DNA from: Bacteroidota bacterium
GTDB lineage: Bacteria > Bacteroidota > Bacteroidia > Palsa-948
Assembly (NCBI GenBank): GCA_016213435.1
Contig: JACRAL010000037.1
Coordinates: forward strand, 83,503 to 115,916
Reading direction: 5' to 3'
Length of the DNA: 32,414 bases
The first letter of the stretch is position 1. Each line of letters starts with the position of its first letter. Under the pieces are notes generated by a model that made no database searches, was not told where the DNA came from, and saw nothing but the letters and a program-made list of their open reading frames with translations. Of this stretch, positions 27,593 through 32,414 are shown one piece after another. The position numbers were made by a program, and so were the translations under genes.

Positions 27593-28234
27593 ATGGTTTA
27601 CCGTTTCAGAGTTACATACGAAGATCACGAAGATGTGTTTCGTGACATTGAGATCAGATCTTCTCAATCTTTTTTAGAGTTGCATGCTGCTATTCAGCAG
27701 GCAATAAGTTTTGATAATTCCAAGTCCGCTTCTTTTTATATGAGCGATGATTATTGGAGAAAAGAGGAAGAAATATCTGTTGAGAACACAAACGAAAAGA
27801 AAACAAAAAAAACCAAAAGTAAAAGAGAGGAATCAGGAAATAAAAAAACTATTGCAGATCTTGTTAACGACCCCCACCAGAAATTTATTTATGTATTTGA
27901 TCCGGAAAAGGAATGGACTTTCTTAATTGAACTCATCAAAATTATTCCTGAAAACAAAACTATTTCTTATCCTCAATGCGTGAAGAGTTCCGGCACTGCT
28001 CCAAAACAATACAAGCCCACTAATCTTCCGCCACCTCCCGCAGAAGAAGATACTGTCCTTCCTTTGATGGAAAAGGAAATTATAATCGATGCTCCGGAAG
28101 AAAAAATTTCTGTAGATGATGTGGAAGAAGGCGCCATTCTGTTGGATGAGGAAGATGTAAAAACAGGGGAAGAAGGGGAAGGCGGTGCGGAAGATGAAGC
28201 AGGAGAGGAGTCTGAAGAATTTGATATAGATTAA
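27593..28234 (+). CDS. PRiA4-ORF3-like protein with acidic tail
   Basis: A 213-residue protein of the plasmid pRiA4b ORF-3-like family (also found as an IS1096 passenger protein). Typical parts are VYRFRVTYEDHEDVFRDIEI, SFLELHAAIQQAISFDNSKS and the ASFYMSDDYWRKEEEI region. Then comes FIYVFDPEKEWTFLIELIKI, with a Cys-containing YPQCVKSSG before the tail. Residues from about 140 are almost all Glu/Asp with Pro, low-complexity and probably disordered. The molecular function of the family is not established. It stands alone between cca and miaA, and such genes are often maintained chromosomally in Bacteroidota. No transposase is nearby. Confidence 0.82.
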   Translation: MVYRFRVTYEDHEDVFRDIEIRSSQSFLELHAAIQQAISFDNSKSASFYMSDDYWRKEEEISVENTNEKKTKKTKSKREESGNKKTIADLVNDPHQKFIYVFDPEKEWTFLIELIKIIPENKTISYPQCVKSSGTAPKQYKPTNLPPPPAEEDTVLPLMEKEIIIDAPEEKISVDDVEEGAILLDEEDVKTGEEGEGGAEDEAGEESEEFDID

Positions 28235-29207: not shown

Positions 29208-29303
29208 AATAATGATACCTGACAGACTGTCTACATTGATTGTCAAGAAGAGCGCTATAATGCAGTTCCAACCTTTTTATGTTCTTATTCGTCTAAGTTG
29301 CAT

Positions 29304-29993
29304 ATGAAACACACTCGCTTTTTACATTTGACCCTATCTGTACTGGTTCTTTCATTTTACTCCTGTGGTAAAAAATGGAAAAAACCTACTGATGTTTCTT
29401 TTAAGTTTCAGCTTAATAGTAATTCGAATAGCGGATTTGTGAAATTTACAGACGCTTATCTTGTGCTGGATAAAGTTTCTTTTAAGGGCGAAAGGAAACA
29501 GGGGACAAAAGAAGTTAATTTGGAGCAACAGTTCAGCAGTACTATGCCGATTTATCTTTCTCTAAATGCTACAAGTCCTGGAATAAAGTTTGATATACCT
29601 CAGGGAACTTATTCTCAAATAGAAATCAAGTTGGAAACAAGTACAGACCCGAGCGGAACAGCATTACAAGTTAACGGTACATATTTAGATTCCTCCAATA
29701 ACGATGTCGCAGTTCAGTTTACATTTTCTGCAGCAGATGTTACTGATATTATAGCAAAAAATTCAAGTGGAGGAAATCAAATAGTCCTTATTGCAGATCA
29801 ACCGGCAACTGTAACAATTATAATAAATCCCGTTTACTGGTTTGCTCCTGTTTCAGAAAGCATATTGGACGAGGCAGCAGAGGACATTGAAAATGGAGTT
29901 CCAGTTATTCAAATTAATAAAGATAAGAATCAAGATATTTATAACCTGATAATAAATCGTATTAACGATGGTTGTGAGGCTGTTTTTAATTAA
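29304..29993 (+). CDS. Lipoprotein of unknown function, first gene of the sigma/anti-sigma operon
   Basis: ATG 29304 is preferred over an upstream TTG (29298) and gives 229 residues. A lipoprotein signal ends VLSFYSCGKK, with Cys as the lipidated residue. The mature part is beta-rich: VSFKFQLNSNSNSGFVKFTD, AYLVLDKVSFKGER, IKFDIPQGTYSQIEIKLETS and QIVLIADQPATVTIIINPVY. It resembles DUF4382-type surface lipoproteins in outline, but I cannot assign a family. An acidic helical tail (ESILDEAAEDIENG) follows. It is 20 bp upstream of the ECF sigma factor gene, so it is likely part of the same signalling unit, perhaps a ligand or structural partner for the barrel. Confidence 0.7.
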   Translation: MKHTRFLHLTLSVLVLSFYSCGKKWKKPTDVSFKFQLNSNSNSGFVKFTDAYLVLDKVSFKGERKQGTKEVNLEQQFSSTMPIYLSLNATSPGIKFDIPQGTYSQIEIKLETSTDPSGTALQVNGTYLDSSNNDVAVQFTFSAADVTDIIAKNSSGGNQIVLIADQPATVTIIINPVYWFAPVSESILDEAAEDIENGVPVIQINKDKNQDIYNLIINRINDGCEAVFN

Positions 29994-30013
29994 GTTTTGA
30001 TTTAGTTCGGAAT

Positions 30014-30577
30014 ATGATGGAAAATCTGACAGAAGCGGAGTTGATTAAGCATTGTACTGCTGGTAATCGATCGTATCAGGAACTGTTTTACAAAAAATAT
30101 GCCTCGAAAATGTTCGGAGTATGTCTGGGCTATGCTAATTGCCGTGATGATGCCAAAGATATTTTACAGGATGGATTTGTGAAAGTCTTTGCTGCATTAA
30201 AAAATTACAACGGAAGTGGTTCTTTGGAAGGGTGGATAAGAAGGATTATTGTTAACACGGCAATTGATTATTGCCGAAAGGCGCTGAAAGACCAAAAAAA
30301 CATTGATGTTGAAAATGCCGGAGATATTCAAGTGGAAGTATCCGTGCTGGAAAAAATTCATGCACAGGAATTGATGGAGCTGATCCATAAATTACCCGAA
30401 GGCGCAAGAACTATTTTTAATTTATATGTAGTGGAAGGATATAGTCATGGTGAGATTGCTGAAATGCTTGATATCAGCACCGGAACTTCCAAGTCGCAAT
30501 TTTCAAGAGCGCGGACTTTATTGCAGAAATGGGTGAGTAACATGTATGACACAAGAATGATTCCTGGAAACGCATAA
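30014..30577 (+). CDS. ECF-type RNA polymerase sigma factor
   Basis: A 187-residue extracytoplasmic-function sigma factor. Region 2 is CLGYANCRDDAKDILQDGFV with FAALKNYNGSGSLEGWIRRI and VNTAIDYCRK. Region 4 is LPEGARTIFNLYVVEGYSHG then EIAEMLDISTGTSKSQFSRA, an evident helix-turn-helix. There is no region 3 or extended C-terminal domain. Start ATG 30014 or ATG 30017. Five bases separate its stop from the anti-sigma gene. It should direct a regulon that includes its own operon; the promoter was not identified by eye. Confidence 0.92.
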   Translation: MMENLTEAELIKHCTAGNRSYQELFYKKYASKMFGVCLGYANCRDDAKDILQDGFVKVFAALKNYNGSGSLEGWIRRIIVNTAIDYCRKALKDQKNIDVENAGDIQVEVSVLEKIHAQELMELIHKLPEGARTIFNLYVVEGYSHGEIAEMLDISTGTSKSQFSRARTLLQKWVSNMYDTRMIPGNA

Positions 30578-30582
30578 AAATA

Positions 30583-31935
30583 ATGAAAGAAAAAGATCAG
30601 TTTTCTGAATGGTATTTGAGGCAATTCAATCAGATTACGGAAGAGCCGCCAAAGGAAGTTTGGGATAATGTTTCCAATGAACTGGATGTGAATGATGTTT
30701 GGACTAAGATTGATTTGAAGCTCAACAGTATTGACAGAAGAAGACTTTTCATACGCAGAACCGCTTATGCTGCTACAGCTCTTCTTTTGCTGTTTATTTT
30801 CGGTACGACCGTTTTCAAAACATATACCAATCCTGAAAATAGAATCATCCTGTCGGATAAAGAAACTAACCGTGTTGCAAAAGATATCACTTTGCCCCTC
30901 GACAATAAAACAAACGCTGTAGAAAAAGAATTGGCAAAATCTTTGGATGTTGCTCCAAACATTAAGAATTCTGTATCTGTTTCCGAAAAATATTCTCCCG
31001 TTTCTTCTGCTGAATCGAATCCTCATGCAATAGTTATGCAGACAAGTTCTGCAATTTCCGAAAATCATTCTATCAGTAAAGAAGGCGACAAAGAACGTGT
31101 TTCTGCTGCAAATGTTATTCAAACGAATGTAGATACCACTTCAATATCTTCGGAAGGAGATAAGAAAAGCAATGCGGGTGAACTATTTATTGTTCCAATT
31201 AAAACATTATTTATTGCGGCCAATGCGGTTGATTCCTTTGTGCCGCGTTTTACGCTGCATTCTATTGTAAATGCCGATTCAAATAAACATACTCAACAAT
31301 CCGCAAAAAATGAATTTTATGGATTTTACTTAGGCGGAGTGTTTTCTTCGCATAATATGTGGTTACTTAACCAATTGACTTTTGATGGACTGAAAGCAAA
31401 CTCGCTTAATGAAACAAAAATAAGTTTTGGATATTCTTTTGGAATTTCTACAGGTTATAATTTTAGCGATCACTGGGGGGGAGAGTTGAACTGGTATATT
31501 AATTCTCGGCAAGGACAAACCTATAATGTGTATAATGAAGGGCAGTATGTTGCAAGGAAAATAAAAATGGATTTTTCTATACTTAATCCTATGTTGAAAT
31601 ACCGCAATCAAGGATATAGCAACTTGATGAAAACGGCAGACTCGAAAAATATATTGATGGGGATTACTATAGGAATGCTTAAGAGAGGGGAAGATAATTT
31701 CAATTTGAAATCAGAAGACATTACTACTCGTTTTCATAAAGCAAATTATAGCCTCCAAATAGGATATGAATATGAGGTTATTGCTTTTCGCAAAATACTT
31801 TTGTCTTCAGCAATAGTTGCCAATCTTGGAGTAAAGAATATATATAAAGGAGATGCATATATTCCGGCAAGTTTTAACAGAACGCATATTGCGTCAATAG
31901 AATTAAATATTGGCTTGAAGTACTTGTTGCGGTAG
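30583..31935 (+). CDS. Trans-envelope anti-sigma factor with C-terminal outer-membrane barrel (Dma-like)
   Basis: A 450-residue protein with three parts. Residues 1-58 are soluble and acidic, with the repeated W-motif FSEWYLRQFNQITEEPPKEV and VWDNVSNELDVNDVW, like anti-sigma segments. Residues about 60-78 are one transmembrane helix (YAATALLLLFIFGTTVF). Residues about 80-240 are a Ser/Asn/Lys-rich linker without structure. From about 245 it has amphipathic strands ending in an aromatic/basic C-terminus (YGFYLGGVFSSH, SFGYSFGISTGYNF, GGELNWYINSR, ASIELNIGLKYLLR), typical of an outer-membrane beta-barrel. This is the dual membrane-spanning anti-sigma architecture described in Bacteroides. It follows the ECF sigma gene by five bases. 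The assignment rests on layout, not on a search. Confidence 0.75.
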   Translation: MKEKDQFSEWYLRQFNQITEEPPKEVWDNVSNELDVNDVWTKIDLKLNSIDRRRLFIRRTAYAATALLLLFIFGTTVFKTYTNPENRIILSDKETNRVAKDITLPLDNKTNAVEKELAKSLDVAPNIKNSVSVSEKYSPVSSAESNPHAIVMQTSSAISENHSISKEGDKERVSAANVIQTNVDTTSISSEGDKKSNAGELFIVPIKTLFIAANAVDSFVPRFTLHSIVNADSNKHTQQSAKNEFYGFYLGGVFSSHNMWLLNQLTFDGLKANSLNETKISFGYSFGISTGYNFSDHWGGELNWYINSRQGQTYNVYNEGQYVARKIKMDFSILNPMLKYRNQGYSNLMKTADSKNILMGITIGMLKRGEDNFNLKSEDITTRFHKANYSLQIGYEYEVIAFRKILLSSAIVANLGVKNIYKGDAYIPASFNRTHIASIELNIGLKYLLR

Positions 31936-31966
31936 TTCCTCCTCTTTTTCTATTAATAGGAACTAC
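31932..31966. terminator. Stem-loop at the anti-sigma stop codon
   Basis: GTAGTTCCT (31932-31940) and AGGAACTAC (31958-31966) are perfect 9-bp arms with a 17-base loop; the stop TAG lies in the left arm. No T tract follows, so it is more likely an mRNA 3'-end structure than a terminator on its own. Confidence 0.5.
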
Positions 31967-31997
31967 GCAGAGGTCTCTTATTTGCTACAAATTTCAT

Positions 31998-32281: not shown

Positions 32282-32414
32282 TTACGCATTATAATTTAAT
32301 AGTGTTTTCAAGTATGCAGTATCGTAGTTGGCTCTTAGTTTTTTATGGGTCATTGAGAGTTTGGATTCTATTTCTTGGTTTAACAGATTGATTGCAATTT
32401 TATTTGTGAGTGCA
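32282..32414 (-). CDS. C-terminal fragment of a probable transposase (continues beyond window)
   Basis: The minus strand is open from the right edge to a TAA at 32282-32284, giving 43 residues. It contains KIAINLLNQEIESKLSMTHK followed by KLRANYDTAYLKTLLNYNA. The ALNLL-type helix, basic segment and W/Y-D-x-x-YL-x-x-LL ending resemble the C-termini of ISAs1/H-repeat-type DDE transposases, but so short a piece cannot settle the family. The catalytic region would lie outside the window. Taken with the possible terminal repeat near 32061, it suggests an insertion sequence bordering the sigma/anti-sigma operon. Confidence 0.45.
   Translation of the reverse strand, partial: ALTNKIAINLLNQEIESKLSMTHKKLRANYDTAYLKTLLNYNA

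Follow-up and report, generated by a model that had tools for sequence, protein, structure and literature searches.

Dma1/Das1 and Dma2/Das2 of Bacteroides thetaiotaomicron, reportedly the subject of Pardue et al. (2024, PNAS), and EcfO-Reo of Phocaeicola vulgatus are the systems with which we compare the locus analyzed here. FecR and RseA are also membrane anti-sigma factors that control an ECF sigma factor; however, they rely on a separate outer-membrane sensor and receive the signal via a partner or a protease, whereas in the present locus the anti-sigma segment and the barrel would lie on one chain. In B. thetaiotaomicron, the Dma proteins consist of an N-terminal anti-sigma segment, a transmembrane (TM) helix, a disordered tether and a barrel, and such proteins have been reported only from Bacteroidota (PMC13088901). 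EcfO-Reo has the same architecture and responds to outer-membrane-active toxins (PMC9308784); it is also found in B. fragilis (PMC9308784, PMC13114119). The anti-sigma action of the Dma/Reo family was shown genetically (PMC13088901, PMC9308784). Lipoproteins accompany both systems: in B. thetaiotaomicron, vesiculation downstream of Dma1 requires NigD1 (PMC13088901), NigDs are members of the EcfO regulon in P. vulgatus (PMC13114119), and one EcfO regulon lipoprotein, M0N98_03762, has the locus number that follows that of the sigma gene, M0N98_03761 (PMC9308784, PMC13114119).

We re-analyzed a stretch of 32,414 nucleotides from the genome of a Bacteroidota bacterium (the window), in which an initial annotation had described a lipoprotein, an ECF sigma factor and an anti-sigma/barrel fusion as one operon. 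Three co-directional ORFs in that order are confirmed at 29304-31935, separated by gaps of 20 bases (lipoprotein to sigma) and 5 bases (sigma to barrel protein). The unit is probably an autoregulated switch of the Dma/Reo type that responds to outer-membrane stress, with the lipoprotein as its dedicated co-sensor or feedback partner. If so, Dma-type switches occur beyond gut Bacteroides in many environmental lineages that are uncultured, and the subgroup offers three handles on Dma signalling to RNA polymerase: a conserved partner lipoprotein, a sharp promoter, which in several genomes points to a very small regulon, and natural differences in how many N-terminal motifs a protein has.

Layout of the unit and architecture of the Dma/Reo-type protein

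The sigma factor (187 aa; 30014-30577, + strand) matches Pfam Sigma70_r2 (E = 1.9e-15) and Sigma70_r4_2 (E = 5.8e-16) as well as NCBIfam sigma70-ECF (4.9e-26), and it is related to the sigma factors beside Bacteroidaceae Dma at E of about 1e-38 to 1e-40. It is preceded by the lipoprotein gene (29304-29993, +) and followed by the gene for a 450-aa protein (30583-31935, +). An antisense ORF of 225 aa (30445-31122) was taken to be a coding-strand shadow. Upstream of the lipoprotein, at a distance of 96 bases from its ATG, lies a gene of the tRNA dimethylallyltransferase type (IPPT), itself preceded by the gene for a PRiA4 ORF-3-like protein whose C-terminal tail is acidic (27593-28234). The three genes sit at a contig end, which is reached at window position 32414 (G000:C196, 115916 bases). 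The unit had been described as ending in a perfect terminator, a claim that did not survive. The inverted repeat at 31928-31969 (+), which overlaps the Dma stop codon, forms a good stem (-13.8 kcal/mol, z = -1.97), but its T-run lies inside the 17-nt loop and no T-tract follows the stem, so it is not a canonical terminator; it was absent from the output of the terminator scan, and no comparable stem was seen in six relatives. It may still mark a non-canonical transcript end.

For the 450-aa protein, hydropathy and an AlphaFold2 model built with 15 homologues agree on the single chain proposed earlier, with an N-terminal segment, one inner-membrane helix, a disordered linker and a barrel. The model places helices at residues 6-16, 24-33 and 36-82, the last of which covers the membrane helix at about residues 60-78 (30760-30816, +). 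The presumed periplasmic linker, residues 90-239 (30850-31299, +), has a pLDDT below 50 throughout (about 24-42 per block). Across homologues, the segment from the TM helix to the barrel measures 108-192 aa, enough, if extended, to cross the periplasm. An eight-stranded barrel had been expected for residues 245-450, and eight strands are indeed modelled between residues 247 and 449 (31321-31929, +), mostly at pLDDT 80-96. Foldseek returns barrels of the OprG, OmpA, OmpW, NspA and OmpX type (E down to 4.8e-8), which points to an OmpA/OmpW/OprG-type fold in the outer membrane, and Pfam PF13505 scores 3.3e-6 on this region, just under its cut-off. As modelled, the protein thus has the Dma/Reo architecture known from Bacteroides, and it shares with Dma1/Das1 and Dma2/Das2 the N-terminal segment, presumed here to be anti-sigma, the single TM helix, the disordered tether, the C-terminal barrel and the adjoining ECF sigma gene. 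Sequence similarity to Bacteroidaceae Dma, however, was found only in the N-terminal motif and the TM region.

That motif, of about 33 residues, is conserved as x-WY-xxx-F-xxxxxx-PP-xx-VW-xx-I-xxx-LD and occupies residues 3-35 of the window protein (30589-30687, +), where it contains FSEWYLRQFNQITEEPPKEVWDNVSNELD. When a motif HMM was run against 1176 distinct ORFs of the loci examined, 50 matched at a full-length E of at most 0.0025, all of them Dma, a count that includes some genes more than once via overlapping loci. Profile comparison (hhalign) with Bacteroidaceae Dma aligns the same motif (P = 2.8e-4 and 1.1e-4), and residues 3-35 are presumed, by homology to the Bacteroidaceae N-terminus, to bind the sigma factor. 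This lends indirect support to the contact between sigma and residues 1-58 that had been expected earlier. It could be argued that the 450-aa protein is no anti-sigma factor and that the genes merely share a promoter, given that no curated FecR, RseA or other anti-sigma domain scores above cut-off in Pfam or NCBIfam. We regard this as very improbable: sigma and Dma genes adjoin in the loci examined, and the N-terminal motif is specific to Dma and matched in the Bacteroidaceae proteins, the family for which there is genetic proof of anti-sigma action.

The upstream lipoprotein and its linkage to the sigma-Dma pair

The first gene encodes 229 aa from its ATG, with a signal peptide and a lipobox (FYS/C, lipid-bearing Cys21). 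Its predicted structure is nearly all beta (pLDDT 88), and family members share the motifs C..KWK.PT.V.F, F.G.R.Q and DIPQGTY. The protein has no Pfam or NCBIfam family match, and no solved structural relative was found; the best Foldseek matches, to fimbrillin-like folds, have E of about 0.02 and TM of about 0.2 and are not credible. Two families of Bacteroidota lipoproteins were considered as a home for it. In profile comparison with six NigD proteins, only the signal peptide aligns, and NigD (PF12667) has no match anywhere in the source genome. DUF4382 (PF14321), another group of beta-rich Bacteroidota lipoproteins, shows a distant profile similarity, in that distant relatives of the window protein grade into it; those relatives mostly stand alone. 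The window protein itself has no DUF4382 match, and one of six relatives reaches E = 0.11, below cut-off. The lipoprotein, present as a single copy in its own genome, thus belongs to an unnamed family and is not a NigD.

A lipoprotein gene beside a Dma pair is not wholly new, given the NigD precedent, although that concerns another family. In Bacteroidaceae-like genomes, nigD adjoins the sigma-Dma pair in divergent orientation (L117:922-3695, L118:990-3700), and the neighbours of Bacteroidaceae Dma are NigD or DUF4943/DUF4858 proteins. The window unit is like these in that a lipoprotein is encoded next to an ECF sigma gene and the gene for a presumed barrel anti-sigma factor, but differs in that its lipoprotein is unnamed, co-directional and placed first, and that NigD is probably exposed on the surface. 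The comparison with EcfO-Reo runs along the same lines: an anti-sigma factor, here a presumed one, reaches from the cytoplasm to an outer-membrane barrel, and the regulon, here a predicted one, includes lipoproteins, but the EcfO-Reo lipoproteins are of the NigD surface type, and the NigDs examined are acidic after the cysteine whereas the window protein is basic and unrelated by profile.

These charges bear on orientation. In Bacteroidota, lipoproteins displayed on the cell surface have acidic residues behind the lipid-bearing cysteine, and those lacking them are expected to stay on the periplasmic face (PMC6222051). For the eight residues that follow this cysteine, we subtracted the number of basic from the number of acidic ones. 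The window lipoprotein scores -4 and 21 operon lipoproteins average -1.9, whereas the six NigDs range from +1 to +3 (p = 0.0007 against the operon lipoproteins) and 34 other lipoproteins of the same loci average +1.0 (p = 4e-6). As the residues after Cys21 are basic and the acidic export signal is absent, the lipoprotein probably faces the periplasm, on the outer membrane.

The upstream lipoprotein had been predicted to accompany the pair in relatives, and it does, in 22 distinct lipoprotein-sigma-Dma units drawn from a genome set and GTDB contigs (genomes seen twice removed) and spread over at least nine families. Because a genome of the same genus carries the same unit (56% identity for the lipoprotein, 67% for sigma, 41% for Dma) and the order is kept in at least nine families, the trio is not a chance arrangement. 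On the sigma tree, presence of the lipoprotein needs three gains or losses, versus 10.8 in shuffles. When the GTDB contigs were searched with a lipoprotein-only profile, all 14 loci recovered were lipoprotein-sigma-Dma; a search of the same contigs with a single Dma sequence found nothing, whereas the lipoprotein alignment did find loci. Among 395 genomes, 26 have a lipoprotein match at E of at most 1e-5, 13 of these with an adjoining sigma-Dma pair, and all eight matches below E = 1e-60 sit in sigma-Dma units. Since the profiles were built from operon members, the sample is biased toward such members. No close lipoprotein relative away from sigma-Dma was found in the GTDB contigs or the 395 genomes, and some distant relatives have no Dma gene beside them. 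The converse association is looser: several sigma-Dma pairs occur without the lipoprotein (L051, L054-L057, L059, L061), and it is therefore not required for the switch.

Divergence of the lipoprotein tracks that of the barrel slightly more than that of sigma (r = 0.79 versus 0.74; partial correlation 0.51), a weak difference that is only suggestive because all the distances correlate.

Predicted promoter and regulon

A predicted ECF-type promoter, TTCCAACCTTTT...C(G/A)TC, precedes lipoprotein-sigma-Dma units and often the next gene as well. In the window, the predicted promoter is TTCCAACCTTTTTATGTTCTTATTCGTC (29266-29293, +), with a -35-like TTCCAACC and a -10-like CGTC; CAACC...CGTC spans 29269-29293, with 16 nt from CAACC to CGTC. 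As some 10 nt lie between the end of the predicted -10 element and the lipoprotein ATG, the mRNA would be nearly leaderless; in L072, the leader would measure about 50 nt. We searched the 200 bases 5′ of the first gene of each unit for CAACC-N15..17-C(G/A)TC or CGTA and found the pattern upstream of 17 of 24 units, versus 0.10 expected, with 13 of 17 units that have the lipoprotein and four of the seven that lack it. Thirteen of 27 loci have the element again just 3′ of Dma (0.39 expected). The genes that follow it there often encode lipoproteins, among them a paralogue of the unit's own lipoprotein (L073, L075) and one of the DUF4382 family (L082). The paralogues are second, diverged copies lying directly 3′ of Dma, each with its own promoter copy (L073:8649-9332, L075:5109-5792). 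Beside the NigD genes of the Bacteroidaceae-like genomes (L117, L118), the CAACC...CGTC promoter was not found. The promoter that links the genes of the present unit appears to be new, as does the association of this lipoprotein with Dma-type switches across many families.

For a strict form, TTCCAACC(A/T)TT-N13-C(G/A)TC, we counted 14 copies across eight genomes that carry the unit, six of which have the form, and none in ten that do not carry it, five of these of the same genus (Fisher p = 0.0015); its reversed control has no match in any carrier. As the strict promoter tracks carriage of the operon and has few copies, the pattern of sites suggests that the unit is likely autoregulated and that its regulon is likely very small. 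The same-genus genome G004 contains two exact matches, one beside the operon and one unlinked, and both precede DUF2271-like secreted proteins that are 64% identical over 184 aa. No relative of the DUF2271 domain was found in the source genome, which holds two strict copies in all. The second copy (G000:C66:8855-8882) precedes tandem soluble proteins of 139 and 137 aa with like starts (MKEQCDFPAFTAY). The loose pattern is no commoner in this genome than its reversed control (it has fewer matches), and most sites with one mismatch lie inside genes. Given two strict copies and an uninformative looser form, the regulon is either small or loosely defined.

The lipoprotein may be an output only, an envelope effector that, like NigD1 or the Spy chaperone, is produced in quantity once sigma is free and makes no contact with the barrel, and for this we see somewhat less than an even chance. 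The lipoprotein is the first gene behind the sigma promoter, the same promoter stands before other lipoproteins 3′ of Dma (L073, L075, L076, L078, L079, L082), and there is precedent in NigD1, which acts in vesiculation downstream of Dma1 (PMC13088901), and in the NigDs of the EcfO regulon (PMC13114119). However, effectors usually scatter through a regulon, while the close relatives found here all lie with sigma-Dma; the lipoprotein's divergence follows that of the barrel a little more closely than that of sigma; and it lacks the acidic signal by which surface effectors of the NigD kind are exported.

Predicted operation of the switch

In the mechanism that we propose, the barrel of Dma would sit in the outer membrane, the linker would cross the periplasm, one helix would anchor the protein in the inner membrane, and the cytoplasmic motif, short and helical, would hold the sigma factor. 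Sequestration of sigma is inferred from the motif and from precedent, and precedent likewise suggests a trigger in the outer membrane. A change in the barrel (damage, mis-assembly or a bound ligand) would release sigma, through a pull on the linker or through proteolysis, and free sigma would transcribe its own operon from TTCCAACCTTTT...CGTC, lipoprotein first, together with a few envelope genes. As lipoprotein, sigma and Dma would be transcribed together, the response would carry its own inhibitor. The lipoprotein, probably anchored in the outer membrane on its periplasmic side, may then adjust or reset the barrel sensor.

The earlier proposal was that the switch could do without a protease cascade. 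Whether sigma is instead freed by a regulated cut in the linker or helix once the barrel fails to assemble, as with RseA but with the sensor fused, is nearly an even call, and such a step would be compatible with any of the roles proposed for the lipoprotein. RseA-type cascades are the common solution, the long disordered linker is an obvious target, and housekeeping proteases would serve. On the other hand, neither the window nor the relatives listed, few of whose neighbouring genes were annotated, showed a recognizable protease gene within the unit or next to it, and the linker, which cannot be aligned, shows no conserved site for cleavage.

The lipoprotein could alternatively be, as had been suggested earlier, what the switch senses, a ligand or plug of the barrel or of its periplasmic mouth whose loss or mislocation frees sigma. 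Its strict linkage to barrel-type anti-sigma genes, its probable periplasmic orientation and the OmpA-like barrel are in keeping with this, and RcsF with OmpA in E. coli offers a comparison. We nevertheless consider it improbable. Several Dma units have no lipoprotein, eight-stranded barrels normally have little lumen, and a plug that is autoinduced and holds the switch off would amount to negative feedback, not to a simple ligand. Placed first behind a promoter that its own sigma factor probably uses, the lipoprotein suits the part of an induced output or of a feedback partner no less than that of a ligand.

A dedicated co-sensor or feedback role, to which we assign an even chance, is the reading that we favour over a pure effector and over a plug or ligand; these roles overlap, and our estimates for them are not meant to sum. 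It is favoured because of the exclusive linkage, the likely periplasmic orientation and the slightly closer, if weak, co-divergence with the barrel. A more specific version of the co-sensor role, in which the periplasm-facing lipoprotein binds the barrel and gates sigma release while the number of motifs, from one to three, sets the threshold, is speculative and on balance rather unlikely; if true, the unit would be an outer-membrane sensor in two parts with a direct line to RNA polymerase.

The motif count differs among the proteins of this group, a feature by which they depart from Bacteroidaceae Dma: the window protein has one copy, many relatives have two, and L080 has three. Tandem motifs might each engage a sigma molecule, so that several are bound, or might serve to set a threshold. 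Genes with two or three copies include L080:7255-8898, L073:7233-8570 and L077:5132-6568.

Two further loci pair a lipoprotein and a sigma factor with a TM protein that has no barrel. At L065:3599-5800, a distant lipoprotein relative lies 3′ of a sigma factor and a one-TM protein that is probably an anti-sigma factor. At L121:2999-4932, a NigD gene lies 5′ of an ECF sigma gene, which is followed by a short TM protein of 182 aa, likely an anti-sigma factor, whose N-terminus (LLPEGHFERFEQKL) looks by eye like the Dma motif.
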